DNA of 64,000 bases from Haloglomus litoreum. Its GTDB lineage: Archaea > Halobacteriota > Halobacteria > Halobacteriales > Haloarculaceae. Under the pieces are notes generated by a model. It was not told the DNA's origin and made no database searches. It worked only from the letters and a program-made list of their open reading frames with translations. This document shows, one piece after another, positions 4,471 through 61,066 of the stretch (its first letter is position 1; every line of letters starts with the position of its first letter). The DNA lies in NCBI RefSeq assembly GCF_029338515.1, contig NZ_CP119988.1:3968001-4032000 (forward strand). The letters run 5' to 3'. Made by a program: the position numbers and the translations under genes.

Positions 4471-5877
4471 TCAGTCGTCGGCGCTGGCGGGTTCGCCCGC
4501 GGGGTCGCGCTCGGCCGGGTGGAGGAGCGGCGTGCCGTCTGCCCGCGGGCCCAGTTCGGGGCCGTGGGGCCCCTCGTCGTCGAGGACACGGCGCTGTTCG
4601 TAGTCCGTCGAGCGCTCGACGGGCACCCGGCCGACCGCGCGGATCATCCGCGCGTACTCGTCGAACGAGCGGAACTCGCCGTGGCCACCGCCCGCGCGCT
4701 TCGTGATCTCCTCGGAGAGGATGGTCCCCATGAAGTCGTCCGCGCCACACGAGAGCATCTTCAGTCCCTGCTCGTCGCCGTACTTCACCCACGAGGACTG
4801 GATGTGCTCGACGTTGTCGAGATACAGGCGCGACACCGCGATCATCAGTTCGTCCTCGTGGACGGTCGCGCCGCCGTCGACGACGCCGCGCTCGTACAGC
4901 GGCGTCGTCTCGTGGACGAACGACAGCGGGACGAACTCCGTGATGGCGCCCGTGCGGTCCTGCAGGTCGCGCACGCGGTCGAGGTGGAGGGCACGGTGGG
5001 CCTCGTTCTCGACGTGGCCGTACATGATGGTCGCGGTCGTCGGGAGGCCCGCCTCCGCGGCTGCCTCCATCGCGTCGAGCCAGTCGTCGGTGCCGATCTT
5101 GCCGGGGCAGATGACATCACGCACCTCGTCGACCAGTATCTCGGCCGCCGTTCCGGGGACCGAATCGAGGCCCGCCTCCTGCAGCCGCCGGTACGTCTCC
5201 CGGTAGGAGCGGTCGGTCCCGCGTTTGGCGTGGTAGGCCTCCTCCGGCGTCATCGAGTGGAGGTGTGCGCCGTCGACGGACATCGCGCGCATCTGCTCGA
5301 CGTACGTGCCGGGGTCGGTCTCGTACCGTTCGGGCGGCTTGTAGTTCACCTCGCTCGCAGGATCGTCGTACGAGGCGAGCGCCTCGTGGTGGTCTTCGTC
5401 CAGCGCGAACGCCGGGTGGAGCCCGGAGACGGAGGTGACCTCGTAGATACCCCGGTCGAGGGCGTCCCGGACGATGGCGCGGGATTCGGCGGGGGTCTTG
5501 GTGAACCCGGCGTGTTCGACCTCCGAGTCGCGCTCGAAGTTCGCCGCGGTGTCCTTGAAGTTGCAGAACAGACAGCCCGTGTTGCACGCCGTCGTGACGT
5601 TGTTGTTGAGGTTCGCGACGAAGGTGACCGCCTCACCGACGACCTCGGCACGCCGGCGGTCGGCGGCCTCGAGGACGAGTTCCTTGCGCGCGTCGTCGAT
5701 GCCGTCCGCGTCGGTCCCCGTGGTGAGGAGTTCGATGGCGTCGTCGACGTCGAGGCGCTCGCCCGAGCGGGCCTTCGCGAGCGCGTTCTCGAACGACTGG
5801 TCCGTGACCGGCCGGTGCTCGAACCCGAACCGGCCACGGGGGACGCCCGTGTCGGCGGGCGCCTCGAACGTATCCAT
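4471..5877 (-). CDS. cofH: 5-amino-6-(D-ribitylamino)uracil--L-tyrosine 4-hydroxyphenyl transferase CofH (Fo synthase subunit)
   Basis: CofH is the radical-SAM subunit that joins tyrosine to the pyrimidine precursor, giving the substrate of CofG in Fo synthesis. The cluster motif CNTGCLFC supplies C98, C102 and C105. Other family segments are VTSVSGLHP, LHSMTPEE, SVPGTAAEIL and TATIMYGHVE. I chose ATG 5877, giving 468 residues; an ATG 15 bp upstream (5892) is a possible alternative, and the much longer in-frame extension toward 6333 overlaps the divergent stress-protein gene and is spurious. The gene converges with the lipoprotein gene; cofC and cofG lie on the opposite strand 1-3 kb away. 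Confidence 0.93.
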   Translation of the reverse strand: MDTFEAPADTGVPRGRFGFEHRPVTDQSFENALAKARSGERLDVDDAIELLTTGTDADGIDDARKELVLEAADRRRAEVVGEAVTFVANLNNNVTTACNTGCLFCNFKDTAANFERDSEVEHAGFTKTPAESRAIVRDALDRGIYEVTSVSGLHPAFALDEDHHEALASYDDPASEVNYKPPERYETDPGTYVEQMRAMSVDGAHLHSMTPEEAYHAKRGTDRSYRETYRRLQEAGLDSVPGTAAEILVDEVRDVICPGKIGTDDWLDAMEAAAEAGLPTTATIMYGHVENEAHRALHLDRVRDLQDRTGAITEFVPLSFVHETTPLYERGVVDGGATVHEDELMIAVSRLYLDNVEHIQSSWVKYGDEQGLKMLSCGADDFMGTILSEEITKRAGGGHGEFRSFDEYARMIRAVGRVPVERSTDYEQRRVLDDEGPHGPELGPRADGTPLLHPAERDPAGEPASADD

Positions 5878-6049
5878 GCCCCACCCTCTCATGCGGAGGT
5901 ACAAATGCACAACGGGTAGCGGCTGGCCGTGCGGGGCCCGTGTCCTCGTCGGCCCGGGAGTCGTCGTCCCCGGGAAGCGGTCGCCGGACTGGGGGGTGGC
6001 CGAGCCGTTCGCGTCCAGATTGAAGTGCCGGCCCGCTGAAGCGCCGCGT

Positions 6050-7027
6050 ATGTACGACGAGATCCTCCTCCCGACGGACGGGAGCGCCCACGCGACGGCC
6101 GCGGCCGAGCACGCACTGGCGCTGGCGCGCGCGTTCGACGCGACCGTGCACGTCCTCGGCGTGGCCGACGTCGACCGGGCGGCCGGGCTGTTCAACGCCG
6201 GCGGCGTGGACGAGGCGTTCGTCGAGCGTGTCGAGCGCGACGCCCAGCAGGCCGTCGACCGGACCGCCTCGCTGGCGGCCGACGACGACCGGCTGGAGAC
6301 CGTGGTCGTCGACGGCGACCCCGGCGAGGCCATCGTCGACTACATCGAGGAGGCGGGTCTCGACGCCGTCGTCATGGGAACCCACGGGCGGCGGGGGATC
6401 CGCCGGTTCATCGCCGGGAGCGTCACCGAGCACGTCATCCGGGTGGCCCCGGTCCCGGTCTTCACCGTCCGTCGACCGGACGACGTCGGCGAGGGCGACG
6501 AGTCGACCGGCGCGACCGGTGACCTCCCGCGCTACGAGCGGGTGCTCGTGCCGACCGACGGGAGCGACACCGCCGAGCGGGCCGTCGAGCACGCGCTCGC
6601 CATCGCCGAGGCGTTCGACGGCGAACTCCACGCCCTCAACGTCGTCGACGTGGGGGCCGTCGCGTCCAGTTCCGACATCGTCCCGTCGGAGACCGTCATC
6701 GAGTCGCTGACCGACCGGGGCGAGGCGGCCGTCGCCGACGTGGCCGAGCGGGCCGGCGAGCGCGGTGTCGAGGCCACCACCGACGTCCGGCAGGACTTCC
6801 CCGGAAGCGGCATCCTCGGCTACGTTCGCGAGCAGGAGATCGACATCGTCGTGATGGGGACGCACGGCCGGACCGGCCTCGGTCGGGTCCTGCTCGGCAG
6901 CACGGCCGAACGGGTCATCCGCCGCGCGGAGGTCCCGGTCTGTGCGGTTCCCGCCGAGGGACGGAAGGAGGCGATGGAGGAGGAGGGCGTGCCCGAGGAT
7001 AGCGAGGCCGGCGAGGACGAGGACTGA
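6050..7027 (+). CDS. Tandem-domain universal stress protein (UspA family)
   Basis: Two UspA-type alpha/beta domains are fused in one chain of 325 residues. The first runs from MYDEILLPTDGS to the ATP-binding-type segment GTHGRRGIRRFIAGS. The second starts at YERVLVPTDGS and ends with GTHGRTGLGRVLLGS. Both halves keep the G-2x-G-9x-G-S/T pattern of nucleotide-binding Usp proteins, so ATP or AMP binding is likely. Start ATG 6050 matches the canonical Usp N-terminus; an in-frame extension to 5474 is spurious. The acidic tail (EEEGVPEDSEAGEDED) is a haloarchaeal addition. The gene is divergent from cofH. Confidence 0.9.
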   Translation: MYDEILLPTDGSAHATAAAEHALALARAFDATVHVLGVADVDRAAGLFNAGGVDEAFVERVERDAQQAVDRTASLAADDDRLETVVVDGDPGEAIVDYIEEAGLDAVVMGTHGRRGIRRFIAGSVTEHVIRVAPVPVFTVRRPDDVGEGDESTGATGDLPRYERVLVPTDGSDTAERAVEHALAIAEAFDGELHALNVVDVGAVASSSDIVPSETVIESLTDRGEAAVADVAERAGERGVEATTDVRQDFPGSGILGYVREQEIDIVVMGTHGRTGLGRVLLGSTAERVIRRAEVPVCAVPAEGRKEAMEEEGVPEDSEAGEDED

Positions 7028-14463: not shown

Positions 14464-16134
14464 TCACTCCTGGTCGCGGAGGTGTCTGATCCGTTCGTCG
14501 ACCGAGCGGTGGGCGGCGTCGAGCAGGACGCGCCCGAAGAACAGGTCGTACGGGGCACGGATGACCCGCCATGTCGACCGTGCGGCGCCGTGGGCGGAAC
14601 CACCACCCGACAACCGGCCACCGCCGTCGGCCAGCGCGTCCCCGGCCCCCCGGGCCCGTTGCCCCTCCAGCCGCCGGAGCGCCCGGACCACCGCGCCGGT
14701 CCCGACGGCGGCCGCGGCGTGCTCGTCGGCGGCCCGCTCGGCGGCCGCGTAGTCGTAGAACGCCAGCAGCGCGTTCCGGCCGCCGAAGCCGAGCCCCGCG
14801 AGCGTGGCGACGGCGGCCGCGGTCAGGTCGCGGCTCCCGAGGTGGTACGCCTCGTGGGCGACGACCGCGCGGAGCTCGTCCGCCGCGAGCGCCTCGGCGA
14901 CGGGCCGCCCGACGAGGACGCCGCGCCACAGCCCGGCGACGGCCACCGGGCGGACGAGCGGCCGGTCGGTCGGGACCACGCGGACGGGGACCGGGAGCGG
15001 GTCGCTGGCCGCCTCGCTGGAGTCGAACCGGCCCCCTGCCGGCTCCGAGCGGGCCAGTGCGAGCAGCCGGCCGCCGACGCTTCCCCCGAGGTGTGCGGCC
15101 CAGCCGACGGCGAGCCACGCCAGCGGCGCCAGCAGCAGCAGCGTGAAGCCCGCGACAGCGAGGTCGTCGCCCAGCGCGCCCCGGAGGGTGGCCCGTCCGA
15201 GAACGGACGGGACGGTCTCTCCGAGGGGCGGGGCGCCGCCGAGCGGGACGCTCCCGCCGGCGACCACGGCGCGGAGGGCGAGCACAACGCTCCCCGCGAG
15301 GGCGAGCGTCAGCGCACCGTACCCGAGTGCAGCCAGGGCTCGGTACCGGCGCGCAACGGGCGTGAGCCGTGCGGCCCGGAACCGGCGGAGCGCGAGCCGG
15401 CAGTACGCCGGGAACAGTGCCCCGAGCGCCAGCGCGAGCGCGCCCACGAGGCCAACCGCGAGCGCGGGCGACCGGGCGTCGCGAAGGAGTGCGCCCGCGA
15501 CCAGCAGGTTCGTCGCTGCGACCAGCGGCGCGAGCAGCCCCGAGAGCGGCACGTCGAGCGCGGTCACGCGCCGGCCGGTCCCCGCGAGGAGGTACGCGCC
15601 CGCCCCGACCGCCGTCAGCACCGCGACGGGTGCGGCGGCGACCGCCGGCGGGACGGTCCCGCGCAGGGTCCCGAACAGCGCCAGCGCGGTCGCCGCGTAC
15701 GGGGCCAGCGCCGTCGCGGTCAGCCCGCGGTCGACGGTGCGGGCGCCCGGCGTCTCGGGGAGCGGGCCGACCAGCAGGTGCCCGACGGGGAGCAGCGTCA
15801 GGGCGACGCCGCCCCAGAGCGCCGGGAGGAAAGTCCACGGGGGCGCGTCGAGCGCGAGCGCCACGGCGACGGCCAGGAGGAGCAGCACGGCACCCGGGCC
15901 GTACTCCCCCGGAAGCGCGACGCTCACCCGGAGGTCGCCGGTGGTCGCGTCGAGTTCGGCAGTCGTCCGGTAGGGCCCCCGCCGGGCGACCCAGCGGCTC
16001 CCGGGTGCGGTGGGGGTGTCCGGGGCCTCGTCCCCGCCTCCGTCCTCGGCGTGGAAGCGCGCGTCGTCCTCGAACGCCGCTCGGACGAGCGCGGCGGGCC
16101 GGTCGAGCGTGCGGGTCTCACGGTAGGCCTCCAT
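14464..16134 (-). CDS. M48-family zinc metalloprotease, multi-pass membrane
   Basis: A 556-residue membrane peptidase. The zinc site HEAYH (427-431) and the third-ligand region AAERAADEHA (E466) match the M48/HtpX arrangement. Ten or so hydrophobic segments precede the active site, many more than HtpX has, and the first 80 residues form a soluble cap. The family works in membrane-protein quality control; the substrate is unknown. Start ATG 16134 (MEAYRETRTL) was preferred to an in-frame extension of nine residues. The gene is tail-to-tail with the secreted protein gene at 13721. Confidence 0.85.
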   Translation of the reverse strand: MEAYRETRTLDRPAALVRAAFEDDARFHAEDGGGDEAPDTPTAPGSRWVARRGPYRTTAELDATTGDLRVSVALPGEYGPGAVLLLLAVAVALALDAPPWTFLPALWGGVALTLLPVGHLLVGPLPETPGARTVDRGLTATALAPYAATALALFGTLRGTVPPAVAAAPVAVLTAVGAGAYLLAGTGRRVTALDVPLSGLLAPLVAATNLLVAGALLRDARSPALAVGLVGALALALGALFPAYCRLALRRFRAARLTPVARRYRALAALGYGALTLALAGSVVLALRAVVAGGSVPLGGAPPLGETVPSVLGRATLRGALGDDLAVAGFTLLLLAPLAWLAVGWAAHLGGSVGGRLLALARSEPAGGRFDSSEAASDPLPVPVRVVPTDRPLVRPVAVAGLWRGVLVGRPVAEALAADELRAVVAHEAYHLGSRDLTAAAVATLAGLGFGGRNALLAFYDYAAAERAADEHAAAAVGTGAVVRALRRLEGQRARGAGDALADGGGRLSGGGSAHGAARSTWRVIRAPYDLFFGRVLLDAAHRSVDERIRHLRDQE

Positions 16135-31517: not shown

Positions 31518-31589
31518 GGGCTCGTAGATCAGCGGCAGATCGCTTCCTTCGCAAGGAAGAGGCCCGGGGTTCAAATCCCCGCGAGTCCA
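31518..31589 (+). tRNA. tRNA-Ala (anticodon CGC)
   Basis: A full cloverleaf of 72 bases. The acceptor stem GGGCTCG/CGAGTCC contains the G3-U70 pair that identifies alanine tRNA. The anticodon stem CTTCC/GGAAG encloses the loop TTCGCAA with anticodon CGC. The T arm is CGGGG-TTCAAAT-CCCCG. The discriminator base is A; the 3' CCA is not encoded. No intron is present. Confidence 0.95.
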
Positions 31590-32036
31590 CTCACTTCGTT
31601 CGTCCTCTCGAAGTGTCGGCCTAACGTCGCACAGCGTCGGCTACGCGCCACTTCTCACCGCGCGACAGCCGAAGCGAACTCCCGAGAATGACCGAAGGAA
31701 AGAGGGGCCCTCTTCCACCCCGACGCCGTCCTGCGGTCTCCGGAATGGAACGTGGAGTGGTGGGTCGTGAGGGACTGTGCGGCTCGAAGCTCCGTCACGG
31801 CACCCCCACGGGCAGCGCCATCCCGCGCGACTTCTGCCCTGAATGCGACGGGGGGGAGGGCCGTGTCCGAGCCGCTCTCCGGGGAGCGCTCGACCGCCTC
31901 GGTCACCCCCCTCGGTACGTGCGTGGCTGATGGAGCCAGGATGCGACGGTCACTGGTGACGGGATTGGTCCCGTCGACAGGTGGGTAGCGAACGCCCCTG
32001 TCCGACCGCTGTGCCCGGAAGACCCCTTCGTCGCGG
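31590..32036. other. 447-bp gap after tRNA-Ala, no gene seen
   Basis: It begins with a hairpin CACTTCG/CGAAGTG (31592-31598 with 31609-31615) right behind the tRNA, probably a processing or termination element. The rest has open frames on both strands without protein-like composition. I looked for a second copy of the tRNA 3' end that would mark an integrated element and saw none in the window. Confidence 0.5.
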
Positions 32037-33837: not shown

Positions 33838-34568
33838 TGTCCTCGCCCAACCCAGTGGGTGTCGTGATGCGAACGACCACCACGACGCCGCGCTCGGCCG
33901 CGCTGGCGTTCCTGACCGCCCCCGTCCGCCCGCAGACGTACAGGAACCTCGCGTACCTCGCGCTCCAGTTCCCCCTCGGCGTCGCCTACTTCACGTTGCT
34001 CGTCCCGGCGCTCGCCTTCGGGCTGGGGACGCTCCCACTGCTCGTCCTGTTCGGCCTGCCGGCCGTCGGCGCACTGCTCCTCGGCGTCGCCACGATGACC
34101 GTCGACCGGGCGGTGACGGGCGCACTGCTCCCGGTCGAGCTGGAGCGTCATACCGCCACGAAGTCGCTCGACGACGGTGTCGTCGACTACGCAACGGATC
34201 TCCTGCTGGACCCCGGGACGTACCTCAGCCTCGGGTTCGTCCTCGCGAAGTTCGTCGTCGGGATCGCCACGTTCGTCACCCTGACCGTCGCGAGCGCACT
34301 CGTCGGCGTCGCCGTCACGGCACCCCTGCTCTACGCGCACCCGATGGCGAACTACACGCTCCCGCTCCCGTCGTGGCTCGGCGGGGCGACGTACGTCGTC
34401 GACACGTTCCCGGAGGCGCTGGCACTCGCCGCCGTCGGCGTTCTCGGCCTGTTCGTCACGGTGAACGCGCTCAACGCGCTCGCGTGGGGACTGGGTCGTG
34501 CGACGGAACTCGCCTGCCGGCACGCACGCGTTCTCGGCCCGGCCGCGACGGCGCCCGACCACGCGTAA
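33838..34568 (+). CDS. Sensor-domain membrane protein (PF13796-like), first of a tandem pair
   Basis: A 243-residue multi-pass membrane protein. RPQTYRNLAYLALQFPLGVAYFTLLV opens the domain, followed by further hydrophobic helices and the motif DDGVVDYATDLLLDPGTYLSLGFVLAKFVVGI. I recognise this as the 'putative sensor' domain, which elsewhere precedes histidine kinase modules; here it stands alone. The next gene encodes a close relative. GTG 33838 is the first possible start; the ATG about 30 bases downstream (VVMRTTTTTPR) is an alternative. Confidence 0.8.
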
Positions 34569-34613
34569 CCGCGACAGCCGCTCCACACACCACACACCAC
34601 CACCCGACCATCC

Positions 34614-35369
34614 ATGTCCGTCCCCTCCGAGACGCGGGCCGCCCCGGCCGAGCGTCTCATCGATGCCCTCCGCGCTGTCGTCGGCGTCCCGTTCCGGCCC
34701 CGGACGTACGGGAACCTCGCCTACCTCGCGCTCCAGTTCCCCCTCGGCGTCGCCTACTTCACCACGCTGATCACCCTGCTGGCGCTCGGCGTCGGCCTCT
34801 CGGTCGTCCTCGTCGGCGTCCCGCTCGTTCTCGGGACGCTCGTCCTCGTCACCGGCCTCGTCAGCGTCGAGCCCGTGCTCGCGGACAGACTCCTGTCGGT
34901 CGATGTCCACGCTCGGCCGGCCCCCGTCGACGTCGACGACGGCGTCGTCGCCTACGCGAGGGGACTCGTCCTCGACCCGGGGAGCTACGTCGGGCTCGCG
35001 TTCCTCCTGACCAAACTGTTCGTCGGCATCGTGACGTTCACCCTGCTGACGTTCTTCACGTCGCTGACGGCGGCGCTCCTCGCCGCGCCGTTCCTCTACG
35101 ACCACCCCGGATCGTACCGCTTCTTCTACGACACGACGCTGACGTTCGCCCCCGAGATCAGGTTCGTCCAGGACCTCTGGTCGGTCACGTTCGCCCCCGT
35201 CGTCACGCTCTCGCAGTGGAACGTGGACACGCTCGGGGAGGCGCTCGTCGTCGCGGCGTTCGGGCTGGTCGTCCTCGTCGTCTCGCTGCACGTCCTGAAC
35301 GCGCTCGCCCGCGGCCTCGGCGTGGTGACCGCGTGGGTCCTCGGCCGTGCCCGGTCACTCGGCGTGTGA
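34614..35369 (+). CDS. Sensor-domain membrane protein (PF13796-like), second of a tandem pair
   Basis: A 251-residue paralogue of the preceding protein: RPRTYGNLAYLALQFPLGVAYFTTLI and DDGVVAYARGLVLDPGSYVGLAFLLTKLFVGI align without gaps to its neighbour. In both, the stretch from LAYLALQFPLGVAYF is nearly identical at the DNA level (33954-33990 against 34720-34756), so the duplication is either recent or kept alike by conversion. No kinase domain is attached. Confidence 0.8.
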   Translation: MSVPSETRAAPAERLIDALRAVVGVPFRPRTYGNLAYLALQFPLGVAYFTTLITLLALGVGLSVVLVGVPLVLGTLVLVTGLVSVEPVLADRLLSVDVHARPAPVDVDDGVVAYARGLVLDPGSYVGLAFLLTKLFVGIVTFTLLTFFTSLTAALLAAPFLYDHPGSYRFFYDTTLTFAPEIRFVQDLWSVTFAPVVTLSQWNVDTLGEALVVAAFGLVVLVVSLHVLNALARGLGVVTAWVLGRARSLGV

Positions 35370-52641: not shown

Positions 52642-53100
52642 ATGGAGATAGAAGTGGTCACGGGGACCGGCGAAGGAGCGACCTCCCTGAGCGCGTTCGA
52701 TGCCGCGCTCGCGGACGCCGGGATCCACAACTACAACCTCGTGACCCTCTCGTCGGTCATCCCCGAGGGGGCGGTCGTCTCCGTCGAGGGGACGCACGAC
52801 CGCGAGTGGGACGTCGGGGAGCTGGTGAGCGTCGTCCTCTCGGAGAACGAATCCACGGTCTCGGGCGAGACCATCGCGGCCGGGCTCGGCTGGGCGCAGG
52901 CCGACGAGGGCGGGGTCTTCTTCGAGGCGACGGCCGAGAGCCGGACGAACGTCGAATCGCTGGTCACGCGGGGGATCGAGACCGCCAAGACGAACCGGCC
53001 GGACTGGAACTGGGAGCCGGGGATCGAGACCGAGATCGCCCAGCACACCGTCGACCAGAACGGGGCCGCGATCGTCTCGGCGATCTACCGGCCGGTGTAG
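52642..53100 (+). CDS. pdaD: Pyruvoyl-dependent arginine decarboxylase
   Basis: PdaD makes agmatine from arginine for polyamine or agmatidine synthesis. The 152-residue proenzyme matches the family throughout: GTGEGATSLSAFDAALADAGIHNYNL and LSSVIPEG. Self-cleavage between S37 and S38 should give the pyruvoyl group on the new N-terminus of the alpha chain. ATG 52642; a CACATTTGAC box about 28 bp upstream fits a leaderless promoter. It stands alone between the amidohydrolase operon and the next cluster. Confidence 0.93.
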   Translation: MEIEVVTGTGEGATSLSAFDAALADAGIHNYNLVTLSSVIPEGAVVSVEGTHDREWDVGELVSVVLSENESTVSGETIAAGLGWAQADEGGVFFEATAESRTNVESLVTRGIETAKTNRPDWNWEPGIETEIAQHTVDQNGAAIVSAIYRPV

Positions 53101-53203: not shown

Positions 53204-55255
53204 ATGTCACGAGCCGACCCGGACCTGAACGTTGACATCCCGTCCGGCTACGAGGATGTCGACGAGTGGGCGACGGCGGCGGTCAGGGGGGCCAACAACT
53301 GGCTCGTCACGATCCGCAACGCCACCGACGAGGGAATCGACCCGTGGAGCGACGAGTTCACCAAGGGGGAGAACGGGATCATGACCTACGCGGAGGCGCT
53401 CACCGCGCTGGCACTCACCGAGCAGTTCGCGCCGGTGGACCGCTCGGACTGGAGCACCCTCCGCCGACGCTACTATCAGAACGATCTGGAGGTTGTCCTG
53501 GACCACATCACGGCCGAGGACGGCCCGAACTTCAGGCCGAACCCGTACCTGACCGGGGGTGACGGACAGGGCGAGCGACTGGAGACGGACAACTTCACCG
53601 TCGCGGCGACGTTCTCGACCTCGGCGATCCTGGAGTCGCTGCAGGCCGGCATCGACCTCGGCGACGATATCGACCGGAGCGAGCTCGAGGCGGCGCTGGA
53701 GACCAACGTGGAGTGGCTGCTCTCGAACGCCGTCGAGGGCGAGCGTGTCGCGGCCGACGACGCGGTCGGCTGGGCCTGGCTCGGGAGCGAGTCGAGCCAG
53801 TTCGAGGAGATGGACCCCAGCCCGGTCAACTACTTCACCTACTCGGCTACCATCGTCCTCTGTGACCTCCTCAACTACCGGGGGATCGACCTGGTCGACG
53901 ACGTCGTCACGAAGTACGAGACGGAGCTGAAGGAGACCCTCGAGGGGGCGAGCCGGTTCCTCCAGAACGAGTACTGGGAGGGAGAGTACTGGTCGGTGCC
54001 GACCGGGGTGATGGGCGAGGTGAGCAACAAGGAGAAGCTCCTGTCGACCTGCTACGCGTTCGTCGGCCTCTCGTACGCCGCGGCCAGTCTCGAGGGGATC
54101 GACATCACGGACGAGCGGAGCGACCGGATGGCGACGGCGATGAACTGGGCGCTGGGCTACTACGAGGACCAGCCCAACCTCTGGGCCCTGACCGTGGACT
54201 ACGACTGCGGGCCCGACCACCAGTTCACGGACGGGTCGGCCCCGTACGTGCTGCTGGACTCCCTGGTCGAACTCATCAACCGCCGGCCGGAGCTGGTCGA
54301 GCAGGTCGATGACTTCGCCGCCGACACCATCCGCGAGAAGGTGCGCGGGAAACTGGCGCCGGTCATCCTGGACAAGTGCTGGGCCGGCGACCCGCGGTTC
54401 GAGCAGAAGGGGTTCCGCCACATCGGGAACGCGGACCGGCTCATCAAATCCCGCGACGGTGCCCCCGAGTACAACATGACGGCCATCTACTCGACGGGTG
54501 TCGCCATCGAGACGTTCCTGCTCAACTTCCTCGAGGAGGGCAAGCAGTTCAACTTCGGCGACGAGTTCGAAGAGGAGTCCGACACCGCGACAGGGACGAC
54601 GGAGGCCGTCGAGACGCCGACTGGCACGCCACAGCAGGTCGAGCGCAAGACGGTCAACAACATCATCCTCAACGAGGGCGGCGAGGAGGGCGGCGTCCCC
54701 GAGGCGGTGGACGAGCAGCTCCGGGACATCCAGTCGGAGATCAAGGACCTCTCGGCGGAACTCGGGGACGGGGGCGACGACGTGGCCGTCAAGGAGCTCG
54801 AGACGCGGAGCCTCGCGTTCCTGAGCGAACTCAACGACTGCGAGTCCACGCTCGACGACGAGTACGACGAGCACTGGGTGGACGTGACCGACGACCTCGG
54901 GTCGGCGAAGCAGCCGATCGCCTCGAGCCTGCAGGAGAACTGGGAGGAGAAGTTCAAGCGCATCAACACCGGCCAGTTCACGGAGTACCTCCGCGAGGTC
55001 TACTTCTGTCCCGACCGCGAGACCTACGAGGCACGGGTCGCCTTCGGGGACCGGACGACGCTCCTGTTGCCCCCGCAGCGGGCCATCGTCGACGAGATCG
55101 GCGACTGGGACGACGAGACGTTCCGGGACACGGACGCCCGACGCGGCTACGTCGAGGAGCGCGTCGAGGAGCTGGCCGAGGAGCCCTGGGGCGGCGAGGA
55201 CATCAGCGACGCCGTCTACCAGTTCAAGAAGCGGTTCGAGGAGGAGACGAGCTGA
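53204..55255 (+). CDS. Large helical protein, possible alpha/alpha toroid (first gene of candidate system)
   Basis: A 683-residue acidic soluble protein with no signal peptide or membrane helix. Residues 1 to about 450 show repeated paired helices with small-residue faces (MTYAEALTALALTEQF, FSTSAILESLQAGIDL, LSTCYAFVGLSYAAASLE, ATAMNWALGYYED), which reads like the alpha/alpha toroid of terpenoid-cyclase or glycosidase folds; this is inference. A Thr/Glu-rich linker (about 455-500) leads to a coiled-coil-like C-terminal part (VDEQLRDIQSEIKDLSAELG, VEERVEELAEEPW). I do not recognise the family. It is followed on the same strand by an ATPase, a methyltransferase and a channel-like protein. Confidence 0.8.
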   Translation: MSRADPDLNVDIPSGYEDVDEWATAAVRGANNWLVTIRNATDEGIDPWSDEFTKGENGIMTYAEALTALALTEQFAPVDRSDWSTLRRRYYQNDLEVVLDHITAEDGPNFRPNPYLTGGDGQGERLETDNFTVAATFSTSAILESLQAGIDLGDDIDRSELEAALETNVEWLLSNAVEGERVAADDAVGWAWLGSESSQFEEMDPSPVNYFTYSATIVLCDLLNYRGIDLVDDVVTKYETELKETLEGASRFLQNEYWEGEYWSVPTGVMGEVSNKEKLLSTCYAFVGLSYAAASLEGIDITDERSDRMATAMNWALGYYEDQPNLWALTVDYDCGPDHQFTDGSAPYVLLDSLVELINRRPELVEQVDDFAADTIREKVRGKLAPVILDKCWAGDPRFEQKGFRHIGNADRLIKSRDGAPEYNMTAIYSTGVAIETFLLNFLEEGKQFNFGDEFEEESDTATGTTEAVETPTGTPQQVERKTVNNIILNEGGEEGGVPEAVDEQLRDIQSEIKDLSAELGDGGDDVAVKELETRSLAFLSELNDCESTLDDEYDEHWVDVTDDLGSAKQPIASSLQENWEEKFKRINTGQFTEYLREVYFCPDRETYEARVAFGDRTTLLLPPQRAIVDEIGDWDDETFRDTDARRGYVEERVEELAEEPWGGEDISDAVYQFKKRFEEETS

Positions 55256-55430
55256 GGTAGCGACCGGCCTCTCGGGGGCAGCCCGATCCCGGGAGCTCCC
55301 TGTCCTGCCACCCCGACCGCGGCGTCGGTGCGCACGAACCGACCCCGTCACGCAGCCCGGGCCAGACGTCGCGCCGTAGCGTGGTTCAGCGACCCATACG
55401 CTTTAGTCACACCCATCGCAACCAGCGTCC

Positions 55431-56201
55431 ATGTCGACGTCGACGGACATCGTCTCATTCTACTCCTTCAAGGGGGGTACGGGGCGCAGCACGTCGCTGG
55501 CGAACGTGGCGCACGCACTGGCCGAACGGGGGGCGACGGTCGGCTGTATCGACCTGGACCTGGCGGCTCCCGGGCTCCACATGATCTTCCCGAACATCGG
55601 GGTGGCCCACCTGAACGCGAAGACCGTTCACGACCACCTCAACGGGGACGACAGCGACATCGAGGAGTACATCATCGACGTGGGATCGCAGCTGGACGAG
55701 CCCCCGGAGGGGGAGCTGTTGCTCATCTCCGGGGCCGTCGAGTCGCCGGGCGACGACAACCCGCTGGAGATGATGAAGCGGGCCCTGGAGCTCCGGGACG
55801 ACTTCCAGCGCCGGCGTGACCTGGACTACCTGCTGCTCGACTCCCGCTCGGGCCTCAGCAACCACATGATCCCGGTGTTCGACAAGGCGGACCTGTTCCT
55901 CGCCTTCCACCGCTGGACCCACCAGCACAAGACCGGGACCGACCGGCTGGCCGACTGGATCAAGGACATCGGCGTCTCGCTCGACCACGTGATGAGCGTC
56001 GCCAGCAACGTCCCCACGGCGGTTCCAGAGGACGACATCAGGGAGTGGGTCCAGACGGAGCTGTACGGCGTCTCCGAGTACCACATCATCAACACGTCCC
56101 AGATCCTGCGGGGTGGCGAGGAGATCGTGACGCTGACCCACCCGGACGAACTCATCGCGGAGCAGTACCGGAGGCTGGCCTCACGGCTCGAACGGATATG
56201 A
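55431..56201 (+). CDS. KGGxGR-variant MinD/ParA-type ATPase (second gene of candidate system)
   Basis: A 256-residue SIMIBI-class ATPase. The deviant Walker A is SFKGGTGRSTSLANVA (K14, R19), where Arg replaces the Lys of classical ParA/MinD. Next come CIDLDLAAPGL (D41, D43) and LLLDSRSGLS (D137 to S143) in place of the usual DxPPG switch. This triad (KGGxGR, DLDLxAPGL, DSRxG) marks the KGGVGR-variant ATPases that I know from bacterial conflict and signalling islands, not chromosome partitioning. No ParB gene or parS-like repeat is nearby. ATG 55431; the next gene starts 60 bp later. Confidence 0.9.
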   Translation: MSTSTDIVSFYSFKGGTGRSTSLANVAHALAERGATVGCIDLDLAAPGLHMIFPNIGVAHLNAKTVHDHLNGDDSDIEEYIIDVGSQLDEPPEGELLLISGAVESPGDDNPLEMMKRALELRDDFQRRRDLDYLLLDSRSGLSNHMIPVFDKADLFLAFHRWTHQHKTGTDRLADWIKDIGVSLDHVMSVASNVPTAVPEDDIREWVQTELYGVSEYHIINTSQILRGGEEIVTLTHPDELIAEQYRRLASRLERI

Positions 56202-56261
56202 TGCGCCGGGCGTCGAAGCGTCTCGGGCGAACGGCGACCGACCGCAGTCCACCCAGCTAGC

Positions 56262-57401
56262 ATGGCAGACAACGACTACGACTCACTGTCGGAGTACTAC
56301 ACCAAGGAGGTCGATACCGGCGAGGGGACGGCCGGCCCGACACCGCTGAAGGTGCTCGACGAGTCCACCGTCCTGGACGCGCCGCTCGACAGGGTGCTGG
56401 TGACGGTGTACAAGCGGGGGGAGATCACGCTGTCGGAGGTCGCCGCCGAGACGGACCTCCCGAAGCCGAAGGTGAAGCGCCACCTCGGCGAGCTCCGGCT
56501 CCAGGGGTACCTCGGCATCGAGTACGAGGCCGGGGAGAAGTACTACTACGTCAAGAGCCGGTGGCAGACCGAGGAGTTCCCCTCGGGGCCGGTCATCCCG
56601 CTGGTCTACCAGTACAACCTGCTGAGCGACGAGCAGCGGCTCTCGGCGATCAAGGAGGCCATCGACGAGCACGTCGCCGCCGGCGACGTGGTGGCCGACC
56701 TCGGGGCCGGGGTGGGAGTGCTCTCCTACCTGGCCGCCGAGCGGGCCGAGACCGTCTACGCGGTCGAGATGGACCGCGAGGTGTACGAGAAGGGCCGCGA
56801 GATCATGGCCGAGCAGGGCATCGAGAACGTGACGTACGTCCGCGGGGACGCCCGGGAGGTCGACCTCCCGGAGGAGGTCGACGTCGTCATGTGCGAGATG
56901 CTCGACACCGCCCTCGCCGCCGAGCTGCAGGTGCCGGTGATGAACTACGCCGTCGAGCAGCTCCTCGCTGACGGCGGGACGGTCATCCCGACGGCGGCGA
57001 AGACCTCGGCCCGGCTGGTGAACTCCGACTACGAGTTCCACGGCGGCGAGTTCCGGCTGCCGCACTTCGAGGAGTACGGTGCCAGGGAGAGCGAGCGTCG
57101 CTCCGAGGAGACGGTGTACCACGAGGTCCGCTTCGACGAGAAGAACGCGGAGCTGGTCGAGCAGAAGGTCACCATGACGGCCACCGAGGCGGGGCTGGTC
57201 AACGGGGTGCAGCTCAACACGGACGTCCAGTTCGGCGAGGGGCTCGACTACACGGGGGCGAGCCCGTGGCTGGACGCGCCGCTGAACCTCCCGTTCGACG
57301 AGGACATCCACGTCGAGCCCGGCGACGAGGTCACCATCGAGGTGTCCTACCAGCTCGGCGGCGGGCTGAACAACATCCTGTACGATGTCACGGACCACTG
57401 A
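56262..57401 (+). CDS. Winged-helix plus PRMT-like methyltransferase fusion (third gene of candidate system)
   Basis: A 379-residue fusion. Residues about 35-100 form a winged helix (LVTVYKRGEITLSEVAAETDLPKPKVKRHLGELRLQGYL). Residues 138-250 are a class I SAM methyltransferase: VVADLGAGVGVLS (motif I, 144-155), AVEM (E169), and the segment MCEMLDTALAAEL with E212 and E221 placed like the double-E loop of protein arginine methyltransferases. The remaining C-terminal part is beta-rich, as the PRMT barrel is. A DNA- or protein-directed methylation role is inference. The channel-like gene overlaps its end by 17 bp. Confidence 0.85.
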   Translation: MADNDYDSLSEYYTKEVDTGEGTAGPTPLKVLDESTVLDAPLDRVLVTVYKRGEITLSEVAAETDLPKPKVKRHLGELRLQGYLGIEYEAGEKYYYVKSRWQTEEFPSGPVIPLVYQYNLLSDEQRLSAIKEAIDEHVAAGDVVADLGAGVGVLSYLAAERAETVYAVEMDREVYEKGREIMAEQGIENVTYVRGDAREVDLPEEVDVVMCEMLDTALAAELQVPVMNYAVEQLLADGGTVIPTAAKTSARLVNSDYEFHGGEFRLPHFEEYGARESERRSEETVYHEVRFDEKNAELVEQKVTMTATEAGLVNGVQLNTDVQFGEGLDYTGASPWLDAPLNLPFDEDIHVEPGDEVTIEVSYQLGGGLNNILYDVTDH

Positions 57402-60252
57402 CGGGGCGAGCGGGGACGCCGGGGGAGAATCGACGAGCGGCTGTCGCTACCTCGCGCTGTACGACGCCGAGGCGGGGGCGCTCACCGAGTGGGCGGAGAC
57501 GCTGGCGGCCGACTTCGAGACGCTCGTCGCCGAGAGCGACGTCATCAAGCGCCGGCTCGACCTCGGGACCTACGACGCGGCGTCGCTGTTCGAGCGCGAG
57601 GGGGCCGACAGGGAGGCCGTGTCCGACCGGACGGCCAACCGGCTCATCAAGGCGGACGAGGCCCGGCAGGCCGCCGGCCTCCCCGAGACCTGCCCCCACG
57701 AGTCCCACGAGGACGAGCCGTACTGCGAGTTCCACCTCGCACCGGAGCGGTGTGCCGAGCTCGGTATCGAGCCGGCGGAGATCCGGCGCGCGCTCCTGGA
57801 GCGCATCGGCGACGAGACCGAGGACGGGGCCGGCCGGGGGAAGTGCTTCGCCGGCGGTCGCTTCCGGGAGCTGTCGTTCTCCTACCGGACGCTGGAGTCG
57901 ACGTCGAACCGGCCGATACAGCTGCAGTACGCCCACATCGAGGACCTGAGCCTCGACGACGCGGTCATCGACGAGCGGCTGCTGCTCGACGGGGGGACGA
58001 TCGAGTCCTGCTCGGCGGAGGACGCGCGGTTCCGCCGGACGGTCTCGTTCGACCGGGCGACGCTGGACTGCGACAGCCTCTCGTTCGACGGCTCCGTGTT
58101 CGAGGAGCAGGCCTCGTTCCGGGCGGCGACGGTCACCGCGACCAGGCTCCGGTTCCAGGACTGCTCGTTCGAGCGGGGCTGCAGCTTCGAGGACGCCGAG
58201 TTCGAGCTCGCGCTGGGGAACACGGACCCGGACGTGGACCCCGTGCGGTTCAACGGCACCGAGTTCGACGGCGGCGTGACCTGCAGCGACGCGACGTTCT
58301 CGCTGCGGAACGCCAGCGATATGCGACGCCAGGCCGCGGTCAAGTTCCGGGGCTGCCGGTTCGGCGGGCAGGCCTCGTTCGACGACTGCGAGTTCGGTAC
58401 GGTGAGCAACGACGGCGGCGGCTCGCTGGAGGCGCTCCTGTCCGGCGACGGCGACGGCGACTCCGGCGACGACGTGACCTGGAAGGTGCAGTTCAAGGAC
58501 GCCGAGTTCCAGGGCGGCTTCCGGGCGATCGACGCGGGCATCGCCGGTGACCTCCGGATGCGTGGGGCGGAGTTCCGGGGCGACGGGAGTGACTTCGACG
58601 AGACGACCATCGAGGGGGACTTCGTCCTGACCAACGCCGAGTTCCGGGGCGACGGGAGCAGCTTCGACGGGCTGACCGTCACGGGCGCGTTCTACCTGAA
58701 CAGCGCCGAGTTCTCGCAGGGGGCGGTCACGTTCGCGGGGATCCAGGTCGACGGGCGGCGGATGGACTGCGAGGAGGTGTCGTTCGGGGGCAACAAGCTG
58801 AGCTTCGCGGGCGCGACCATCGACGGCGAGGCGGCGTTCAAGCGGCTGTCGTTCGCCGGCGGCGAGGCCAGCTTCGGCGGCCTCACCGTGCGGGGAGCGC
58901 TCGACCTCGAGGGCTCGGTGTTCGACGTCTCCGGCGGCGACATCGATTTCGCGGACCTGACCGTCGAGGACGAGCTCAACCTCCGGCAGGCGACGTTCAC
59001 CGGCAACGGGATCGACTTCAGCCGGGCGACGGTCGGCGAGACCCTTCCGTCGGCGACGACGGTGGCCGACTGCACGGGGAGCGTCTGGCGGGGTGGCGAG
59101 GTCGACTTCGGCGGGAGCGAGTTCGGCGGGAGCACGGACTGGGAGCTCACGACGTTCGGCGGCGACCAGGTCAGCTTCGCGGGGATGACCGTCGACGGCG
59201 ACGCGACGTTCCACCACGCGGAGTTCGAGACGACGGAGGCCGACCTCTCGGAGCTGACCGTCGCGGGCGAGACGTTCGACATGTCCCACGCCCGGCTGGG
59301 CGGGAAGACCGTGTTCAACGGCGCCGAACTGTGGACCGAGGCGGTCGACCTGCGTCGGCTCCGGGCCGAGGGGGTCGTCGTGGAGTTCCGCAAGGTTGAA
59401 TCGGGCGAGACGCTGGTCGATCTGAGCAACGCCACCGTCACCGACGGCGTGTTCGAGATCGGCCCACAGGACACCGTCTACGGCTTCGAGGGGGCGACCA
59501 TCGGCGACATCGAGATCGCCCTGGGAGAGGGGGAGGGGGCACTGCTCGAGCACTTCGTGTTCAAGAACACCGACTTCGACGGCTTCGACTTCAGCCGGGA
59601 CAACATCAAGCAGGAGCTGAACAACACCGGGTGGCAGATCCACACCACCCACGGTGACGAGACGGCCTCCCCGCGGCGGCTGCGCGACCTGGTGCGGCGC
59701 TACTACCGGCTCGTCACCGAGGGACCCGACGAGGACGGAATCGACCCGAACGAGCTCGAGACGACGTACATGCGGGCGAAGCTCGGCGCGGACCAGCAGG
59801 GCGATCCGGACGCCGTCTCGCAGTTCTTCCAGAAGGAACTGCGCTTCCGGCGGCGGGCTCACGGGCACCGGTTCTGGGACCGGGACCGGGGGAAGGGTCG
59901 GACGACCTACGAGTCGTTCCGGTCACAGGTGCGGATCGGCTGGGACTGGCTCGCGAACACGACCCTCGGGCTCACCGTCGGCTACGGGGAGCGGCCGGGC
60001 AACGTCGTCGCCACGTCGCTGCTCATCGTCCTCGCGTTCGCGTTCGTCTACCGCGCCATCGACGCGCTCCCGCCGGGGTCGAACTCGTTCGACTACGTCA
60101 CCTACAGCTTCCAGGGGTTCATCCAGCTGGTGGTCGGCATCCAGACGACCGGCTCCATCCTGGTCCGGTTCTTCACCGCGGTGGAGGGGTTCCTCGGGGC
60201 GTTCGTCATCGCGCTCTTCGTCATCACCCTCACGCGGTCCATCGACCGCTGA
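57385..60252 (+). CDS. Pentapeptide-type beta-helix protein with C-terminal ion-channel-like domain (fourth gene of candidate system)
   Basis: A 955-residue protein. After a helical N-terminus comes a Cys/His cluster (C103, C114, H117, C123; CEFH is like the small zinc-type motif of haloarchaeal pentapeptide proteins). About 600 residues then form a pentapeptide-like right-handed helix, with repeats such as FRGCRFGGQASFDDCEF, AEFRGDGSDFDETTI and AEFRGDGSSFDGLTV. The C-terminal 85 residues hold two membrane helices (VVATSLLIVLAFAFVY, FLGAFVIALFVITL) around a pore-loop-like TYSFQGFIQLVVGIQTTG, the layout of an ion-channel (Ion_trans_2) domain, although the pore lacks the standard TVGYG. It overlaps the methyltransferase gene by 17 bp. 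Confidence 0.85.
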   Translation: MSRTTDGASGDAGGESTSGCRYLALYDAEAGALTEWAETLAADFETLVAESDVIKRRLDLGTYDAASLFEREGADREAVSDRTANRLIKADEARQAAGLPETCPHESHEDEPYCEFHLAPERCAELGIEPAEIRRALLERIGDETEDGAGRGKCFAGGRFRELSFSYRTLESTSNRPIQLQYAHIEDLSLDDAVIDERLLLDGGTIESCSAEDARFRRTVSFDRATLDCDSLSFDGSVFEEQASFRAATVTATRLRFQDCSFERGCSFEDAEFELALGNTDPDVDPVRFNGTEFDGGVTCSDATFSLRNASDMRRQAAVKFRGCRFGGQASFDDCEFGTVSNDGGGSLEALLSGDGDGDSGDDVTWKVQFKDAEFQGGFRAIDAGIAGDLRMRGAEFRGDGSDFDETTIEGDFVLTNAEFRGDGSSFDGLTVTGAFYLNSAEFSQGAVTFAGIQVDGRRMDCEEVSFGGNKLSFAGATIDGEAAFKRLSFAGGEASFGGLTVRGALDLEGSVFDVSGGDIDFADLTVEDELNLRQATFTGNGIDFSRATVGETLPSATTVADCTGSVWRGGEVDFGGSEFGGSTDWELTTFGGDQVSFAGMTVDGDATFHHAEFETTEADLSELTVAGETFDMSHARLGGKTVFNGAELWTEAVDLRRLRAEGVVVEFRKVESGETLVDLSNATVTDGVFEIGPQDTVYGFEGATIGDIEIALGEGEGALLEHFVFKNTDFDGFDFSRDNIKQELNNTGWQIHTTHGDETASPRRLRDLVRRYYRLVTEGPDEDGIDPNELETTYMRAKLGADQQGDPDAVSQFFQKELRFRRRAHGHRFWDRDRGKGRTTYESFRSQVRIGWDWLANTTLGLTVGYGERPGNVVATSLLIVLAFAFVYRAIDALPPGSNSFDYVTYSFQGFIQLVVGIQTTGSILVRFFTAVEGFLGAFVIALFVITLTRSIDR

Positions 60253-60299: not shown

Positions 60300-60968
60300 T
60301 CAATCGCTACTGGAGCGCGCCTGGTCGAACCGGCTCGCCGGCAGCAGCAGTTCCTCCAGTCCCGGCAGGTGCTTGACGTTGAAGACGACCTGCATCTCGT
60401 CGGAGACGGGCGCGGAGACACAGGAGAGGCGGACGCCCCGCTCGATCCACTCCTTCGGGAGGATGTGGCTGGAGTGCATCGGCATCTCGCCGTCGATGAT
60501 GGCGACGGCGCAGTTGGTGCAGGCGCCGCCGCGGCAGGCGAAGGGCCAGGCGTGGCCGGCTGCCTCGGCCGCCTCCAGCAGCGGGGTCCCGGGCTCGGCG
60601 ACGAACTCGCCGTAGTCGGGGGCCTCGAGGTCCGCGGCGGCGGCCTTCTCGAAGAGGTCGGCGTCGGTCAGCTCCCAGCCCTGGTCGGCCAGCGCCTGGT
60701 AATCGAGGTACTCGACGGTGACGCCGACCTCCTCGGGTTCGGGCTCCGGGTCGGCGTCGGGCTCGTCGGCCGGGGTGAGGTCGGCACCGTTCGTCGCGGG
60801 GTCGTAGCCGTTCTCGATGCGCTCGTAGGCCCGGCGGACCCGCTGGAACTCCCGGGCGGAGCCGCCGTGGTCCGGGTGCGCCTCGAAGACGCGCTCGCGG
60901 TAGGCCTGCTCGATGGTCTCCTCGTCGGCGTCCGGGTCGACCCCGAGCACATCGAACGGAGATGCCAC
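60300..60968 (-). CDS. J-domain/2Fe-2S ferredoxin fusion
   Basis: A 222-residue protein. Residues 1-55 are a J domain (SPFDVLGVDPDADEETIEQAYRERV, HPD at 31-33). An acidic linker leads to a plant-type ferredoxin domain with CRGGACTNC (C145, C150, C153) and C183 in LSCVSAP as the cluster ligands. It should carry one electron per [2Fe-2S] and dock to an Hsp70 or assembly partner through the J domain. Haloarchaea have such fusions. GTG 60968 begins at the J domain. The gene converges with the channel-like gene. Confidence 0.9.
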   Translation of the reverse strand: MASPFDVLGVDPDADEETIEQAYRERVFEAHPDHGGSAREFQRVRRAYERIENGYDPATNGADLTPADEPDADPEPEPEEVGVTVEYLDYQALADQGWELTDADLFEKAAAADLEAPDYGEFVAEPGTPLLEAAEAAGHAWPFACRGGACTNCAVAIIDGEMPMHSSHILPKEWIERGVRLSCVSAPVSDEMQVVFNVKHLPGLEELLLPASRFDQARSSSD

Positions 60969-60992
60969 ACCGGCACGTAGGGAGTCACGCCG

Positions 60993-60999
60993 GTAAAAC
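60993..60999 (-). promoter_or_regulatory. TATA-box candidate for the J-domain-ferredoxin gene
   Basis: GTTTTAC on the minus strand, about 26 bp upstream of GTG 60968, spaced for a leaderless transcript. Confidence 0.45.
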
Positions 61000-61066
61000 C
61001 TGCTTCTCTCGGTAACCGCCACCGTGGCCGGTCCCGACGGATGAAACGCCGGACTGGACCGGTCCG

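Follow-up and report, generated by a model that had tools for sequence, protein, structure and literature searches.

Four co-directional genes of Haloglomus litoreum (genes 1–4) combine an orphan protein, a KGGxGR-type ATPase, a winged-helix protein with a PRMT-like methyltransferase domain and a pentapeptide-repeat protein with a pore-like C terminus, at the right-hand end of what, by comparison within the genus, appears to be an acquired, strain-specific island. The genes are real and their combination is unusual; it is a one-genome finding and not a widespread defence system. The island boundary and a foreign arginine decarboxylase upstream of gene 1 are additions to the preliminary description of the locus. 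All coordinates refer to the window, the whole 64,000-nucleotide stretch of DNA that was analysed, unless another contig is named.

Table 1 Features of the insertion and its flanks in the window
Feature	Position	Strand	Characteristics
tRNA-Ala (CGC), left flank	31518–31590	+	ARAGORN; at the junction in G519 and G521 too
Strain-specific insertion, ~28.7 kb	31604–60309		Absent from G519 and G521; genes 1–4 form the right-hand end
Pyruvoyl-dependent arginine decarboxylase, divergent	52642–53100	+	PF01862, E 2e-30; complete family member
Gene 1	53204–55255	+	683 aa; orphan, plausibly helical protein; charged, possibly coiled-coil C-terminal third
Gene 2	55431–56201	+	256 aa; KGGxGR-type SIMIBI ATPase; NF047398 match
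Gene 3	56262–57401	+	379 aa; winged helix and PRMT-like methyltransferase; PDB PRMT matches
Gene 4	57385–60252	+	955 aa; pentapeptide-repeat protein with C-terminal 2-TM pore-like domain; Pentapeptide_3 ×9, family alignment, hydropathy
DnaJ–ferredoxin gene, right flank	60300–61022	−	Fer2 and DnaJ; 84–87% identical in three same-genus genomes

Island boundaries and layout of the locus

Two genomes of the same genus, G519 and G521, align collinearly with the window over 22.1–31.6 kb (elongation factors, S10 and tRNA-Ala) and 60.31–63.15 kb (the DnaJ–ferredoxin gene and two more genes), at about 82–97% nucleotide identity. The spacing between these flanking blocks is 0.7–0.9 kb in both genomes against 28.7 kb here, and the absence of the 28.7-kb block from both supports horizontal acquisition. 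Searching 40.4–60.3 kb of the insertion against the two genomes returned only paralogue-level matches (67–73%), located elsewhere in those genomes. Genes 1 and 3 are also absent from a third same-genus assembly, G389, whose contig begins at the DnaJ–ferredoxin gene and does not show the junction.

The island encodes regulators and Sensor proteins, along with an ABC exporter, a CAAX-type protease, hydrolases, an amine oxidase, an acyl-CoA dehydrogenase and an amidohydrolase. None of the called genes looked like an integrase, and neither direct nor terminal repeats turned up at the island ends. Two adjacent Sensor-domain genes (33867–35369) share a 105-nt stretch of 81% identity, apparently the product of a tandem duplication.

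Re-deriving the coordinates of the four plus-strand ORFs (53204–60252) reproduced the arrangement first described: the gaps measure 175 and 60 bp, and genes 3 and 4 overlap by 17 bp. Coding bias is haloarchaeal throughout (GC3 0.93–0.97) and composition is alike across the four genes. Reading the sequence by eye, we found TTTAG boxes 30–37 nt before the ATG of gene 1 and of gene 2, and no such promoter-like box before gene 3. Genes 1 and 2 are likely to have separate promoters, both of which the preliminary description had missed; this distribution of boxes suggests two predicted transcription units, gene 1 alone and genes 2-3-4 together. ARAGORN additionally called a minus-strand tRNA-Leu within gene 4 (57887–57977), probably falsely as Rfam gives no match there, and a tRNA-Ala within a coding region at 15006–15093, likely false in the same way.

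The locus may simply belong to a patchwork island that brings together by chance an orphan gene, an ATPase of the KGG type, a regulator resembling PRMTs and a stand-alone pentapeptide pore protein, each working alone. This would fit the promoter-like box that each of genes 1 and 2 has of its own, the ordinary transporters, hydrolases and regulators that make up the rest of the island, the orphan status of gene 1 and the wide spread of the gene 4 family, whose members stood alone wherever we checked the neighbourhood. It sits less well with four genes of similar composition on one strand, with genes 3 and 4 overlapping and with the lack of a box before gene 3. We regard such a patchwork as possible, with the balance somewhat against it.

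Families of the encoded proteins

Gene 2 carries KGGTGRST at residue 14, DLDLAAPG at 41 and DSRSG at 137; KGGxGR, DLD..APGL and DSR[TS]G are motifs that we take to mark the KGGVGR ATPase family. The protein scores 89.0 bits (E 5e-25) against NF047398, the KGGVGR-motif ATPase model, whose cut-off is 90 bits, and 90.4 bits when neighbouring in-frame sequence is included; with that extension, it alone reaches the threshold among 292 haloarchaeal genomes. With the family it has in common the deviant Walker A motif KGG.GR, D.DL.APGL and DSR[TS]G, whereas it is a short stand-alone copy scoring just beneath the cut-off (89 against 90 bits). We keep the KGGVGR-type assignment of the preliminary description, as a borderline membership judged from motifs and score. 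The next-best KGGVGR scores in Halobacteria (G266 and G239) belong to partition-type ParA genes, and a 558-aa KGG ATPase adjoining asparaginase-like genes on a viral contig (L137) is unrelated.

Full-length small relatives of gene 2 lie on cyanobacterial and Deinococcus plasmids and carry RGGTGKS; their settings are bacteriocin export (cyanobacterial) and SpoIIE/STAS/HAMP genes (Deinococcus). On one Deinococcus plasmid (L124, 7992–11147), SpoIIE, STAS and HAMP genes share a cluster with those of two small MinD-like ATPases that are related to each other (RGGTGKS and MRGTGKS). Further ATPase-domain relatives on bacterial plasmids include large proteins, one of them carrying a TIR domain, whose genes directly follow a small or an HTH-encoding gene. 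A Sinorhizobium chiapasense plasmid (L138, 1–6193) encodes a TIR-fused KGGVGR ATPase; a 107-aa gene comes before it, and another TIR gene lies not far away. KGGVGR relatives do occur in signalling and conflict-like settings; nothing direct about gene 2 follows from this. The actinobacterial SCO2521–SCO2525 cluster, which we take from its NCBIfam names to contain a variant P-loop protein and a SAM methyltransferase, resembles the present locus in placing the two near one another, and gene 2 matches NF040564 at E 1e-11. The SCO2525 methyltransferase model NF040568 matched nothing in this genome, nor in the control genomes. Literature searches on KGGVGR, haloarchaeal arginine methyltransferases and SCO2523 found nothing usable.

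Gene 3 had been described as a winged-helix/SAM methyltransferase fusion with a PRMT-like double-E segment, and this description holds. Pfam HTH models match residues 45–97, a SAM motif (DLGAGVG) lies at 146 and the double-E segment (CEMLDTALAAE) at 211, with E212 and E221 aligning at identical spacing to both E residues of PRMT6 SEWMGYGLLHE. Nearly all of the best 60 PDB sequence matches listed are PRMTs, including PRMT6, PRMT2, PRMT3, PRMT1 and CARM1 (best E 2e-12, others weaker). The predicted model has a pLDDT of 38 and a beta-rich C-terminal third. A fold search with this low-confidence model gave PRMTs in 50 of 50 listed matches, over about 290–370 alignment columns, with low TM-scores that reflect the poor global model; on their own, these matches weakly back a PRMT identity. 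Gene 3 passes no curated Pfam PRMT model (14.3 bits against the PRMT5 model, 22.9 needed), and the C-terminal barrel searched alone found no sequence match. It shares with PRMT1/2/3/6 and CARM1 the SAM motif, the nine-residue double-E spacing and a C-terminal part predicted to be beta-rich, but differs from them in its N-terminal winged helix, in reading SPW at the THW-loop position and in leaving the Pfam PRMT models unpassed. We assign gene 3 as a fusion of a winged helix to a PRMT-like methyltransferase, which may methylate protein arginine.

Clear matches to gene 3 among 391 Halobacteria are confined to its own genome and G038, where the copy is decayed by stops and frameshifts, lacks the winged helix and reads TDW at the THW position. 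When 84,980 species genomes and the viral contigs were scanned for peptide patterns, neither gene 3 nor gene 1 gave a hit; such scans require exact short peptide matches and reach close relatives, so that distant ones may escape. A second PRMT-like haloarchaeal protein of 331 aa occurs in G074 (L096, 8914–9909), with TSW at the THW position, no winged helix and a SAM domain 33% identical to that of gene 3.

Gene 4 was rightly recognized as a pentapeptide protein with two C-terminal membrane helices: besides its nine Pentapeptide_3 copies, hydropathy places helices at 874–892 and 929–947 with a P-loop-like segment in between, and the family alignment agrees. Its C-terminal 190 residues fall into a common haloarchaeal family in which TM1, pore-loop-like and TM2 motifs are conserved, and 29 aligned haloarchaeal proteins show a conserved pore loop and an M2-like helix. 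Members have in common the pentapeptide beta-helix and the motifs LE.TY..AKNGA, GYGERP and EGFLGAFLIALFVFTLTRS; gene 4 departs from its haloarchaeal relatives in having a longer repeat region and in sitting after a methyltransferase gene rather than alone. Of the earlier proposal that it is a channel, the 2-TM pore-like C terminus stands, but the aligned family has no canonical K+ selectivity filter and gene 4 itself has no Ion_trans_2 match (2 of 21 family members match, weakly, best E 0.02). One relative bears the NCBI name potassium channel family protein. The sequence can reasonably be read as that of a channel, though this is unproven. Matches to gene 4 occur in 146 of the 391 haloarchaeal genomes, some of them to the pentapeptide region only, and the four plasmid neighbourhoods of relatives that we inspected contain unrelated genes, with genes 1–3 missing there. 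The same genome encodes a second, shorter relative at 37% identity (G000:C1:2313727-2314737).

Gene 1 has no homologue among the 391 Halobacteria outside its own genome, nothing above chance-level scores in 139 genomes of the phylum, no relatives found in plasmids and phages, and no match to family models or the PDB. A single-sequence AlphaFold model (mean pLDDT 39) is all-helical, which makes a helical protein plausible; a PDB fold search with this model was uninformative. The toroid previously proposed for it, a fold that would call for six helical-hairpin repeats, is not confirmed, the internal-repeat signal lying within that of shuffled sequences (91/500).

A foreign arginine decarboxylase upstream

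The gene directly upstream of gene 1 is the sole PvlArgDC in the genome. Although a complete member of the PF01862 family, it is of a divergent type: it shares 45–46% identity with three same-genus copies, which are 80–93% identical among themselves, and groups in a tree with the G288 copy (49% identity), apart from the same-genus copies (support 100/99). The single copy, the low identity to the genus and the tree position argue that this decarboxylase is foreign to the genus and replaced the native enzyme; it would have arrived with or before the cluster, the native copy being gone.

In G038 a decayed decarboxylase directly precedes the decayed gene-3 relative, leaving no room for genes 1 and 2 between them, and the longer decayed decarboxylase fragment is nearest to the G288 copy and to that of the present genome. 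The adjacency of the decayed pair in a second lineage points to this decarboxylase type and gene 3 having travelled together. In the vicinity of this G038 locus (L095, 8800–13069) are an IS66-type transposase and what may be a Cas6-like gene (5273–6226), both named from reading the sequence.

The decarboxylase and the PRMT-like gene might themselves be the real unit, a regulatory pair linked to arginine or agmatine, with genes 1 and 2 inserted into it. The adjacent decayed copies in G038, both of the same divergent type as those of the window, and the status of the window copy as the only decarboxylase of its genome are in keeping with such a pair. We nevertheless think it improbable: it would be documented by a single decayed locus, G288 has a decarboxylase of the same type and no methyltransferase beside it, and, with the winged helix missing from the decayed relative, deletion of genes 1 and 2 explains the arrangement equally well. 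The decarboxylase may be functionally tied to genes 1–4 or a mere fellow traveller; we favour neither.

Distribution and possible working of the cluster

A recurring four-gene system, as the preliminary description envisaged, is not what we find. Among the 391 haloarchaeal genomes there is no second set of genes 1–4: gene 1 is an orphan, gene 3 has one decayed relative, and gene 4 homologues are largely scattered and, where the neighbourhoods were inspected, solitary, close to the outcome that the preliminary description had named as refuting its proposal. As no second genome carries the four together, co-occurrence does not show a joint function. Ten flanking genes tested for known defence genes gave generic HTH similarity only. 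PADLOC gave a candidate PDC-M28B match (E 6e-17) and a mad2 match (E 4e-20), in each case to a generic domain; the mad2 and Csa3 matches of gene 3 we put down to general similarity among methyltransferases and among HTH domains.

These results bear on a role in conflict, anti-viral or by abortive infection, in which the ATPase would be an alarm switch, the pore would kill or depolarize the infected cell and the PRMT-like enzyme would restrain the response or mark its trigger. Channels are common effectors of conflict systems, which suits such a role, together with the TIR-bearing KGGVGR relatives on bacterial plasmids, the two PADLOC matches and the island location. It is opposed by the tested flanks and the lack of co-occurrence, by a gene 1 that has no viral, phage or plasmid relatives and a gene 3 that has no viral ones, and by the wide distribution of the gene 4 family, which does not look like a specialized effector. 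A defence role is possible but unsupported, and we consider this form of it unlikely.

Building on the observed families of genes 2–4, their order, rarity and island status, we tentatively propose, as our preferred reading, an island-borne, switchable membrane module, made up of a genes 2–4 operon and a gene 1 on its own promoter, downstream of the foreign decarboxylase. The gene 2 ATPase would act as an ATP-dependent dimerizing switch, gene 3 would control the locus or methylate an arginine of a partner protein, gene 4 would provide the membrane output through its pentapeptide stalk and 2-TM pore-like domain, and gene 1 could be a scaffold or sensor. We infer here that the four proteins act together, and likewise each interaction, the trigger, the output and the sensor, switch and effector roles. 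The proposal draws on co-direction, the overlap of genes 3 and 4 and the missing box before gene 3; on the KGGVGR, PRMT and pore-like matches and the TIR-linked KGGVGR relatives; and on the island and the linkage of gene 3 to the decarboxylase in G038. Against it stand the unrelated neighbours of gene 4 relatives, the G038 gene-3 relative following right after a decarboxylase and the low confidence of the structure models. We hold a switch–methyltransferase–pore module to be about as likely as a patchwork whose genes act separately. A more elaborate form of the module, in which a mobile archaeal element is anchored by the divergent, native-displacing decarboxylase, an essential-type enzyme, and arginine methylation by the DNA-binding PRMT-like protein gates the pore alongside the ATPase, is a long shot.

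PRMT-like enzymes appear, from these searches, to be very rare in haloarchaea, and a winged-helix PRMT-like gene overlapping that of a pore protein, behind a KGGxGR ATPase, is a concrete case in which to test whether archaeal signalling uses arginine methylation. If the replacement of the sole arginine decarboxylase by an island-borne foreign copy is causal, it would be an instance of an acquired element making itself hard to lose.
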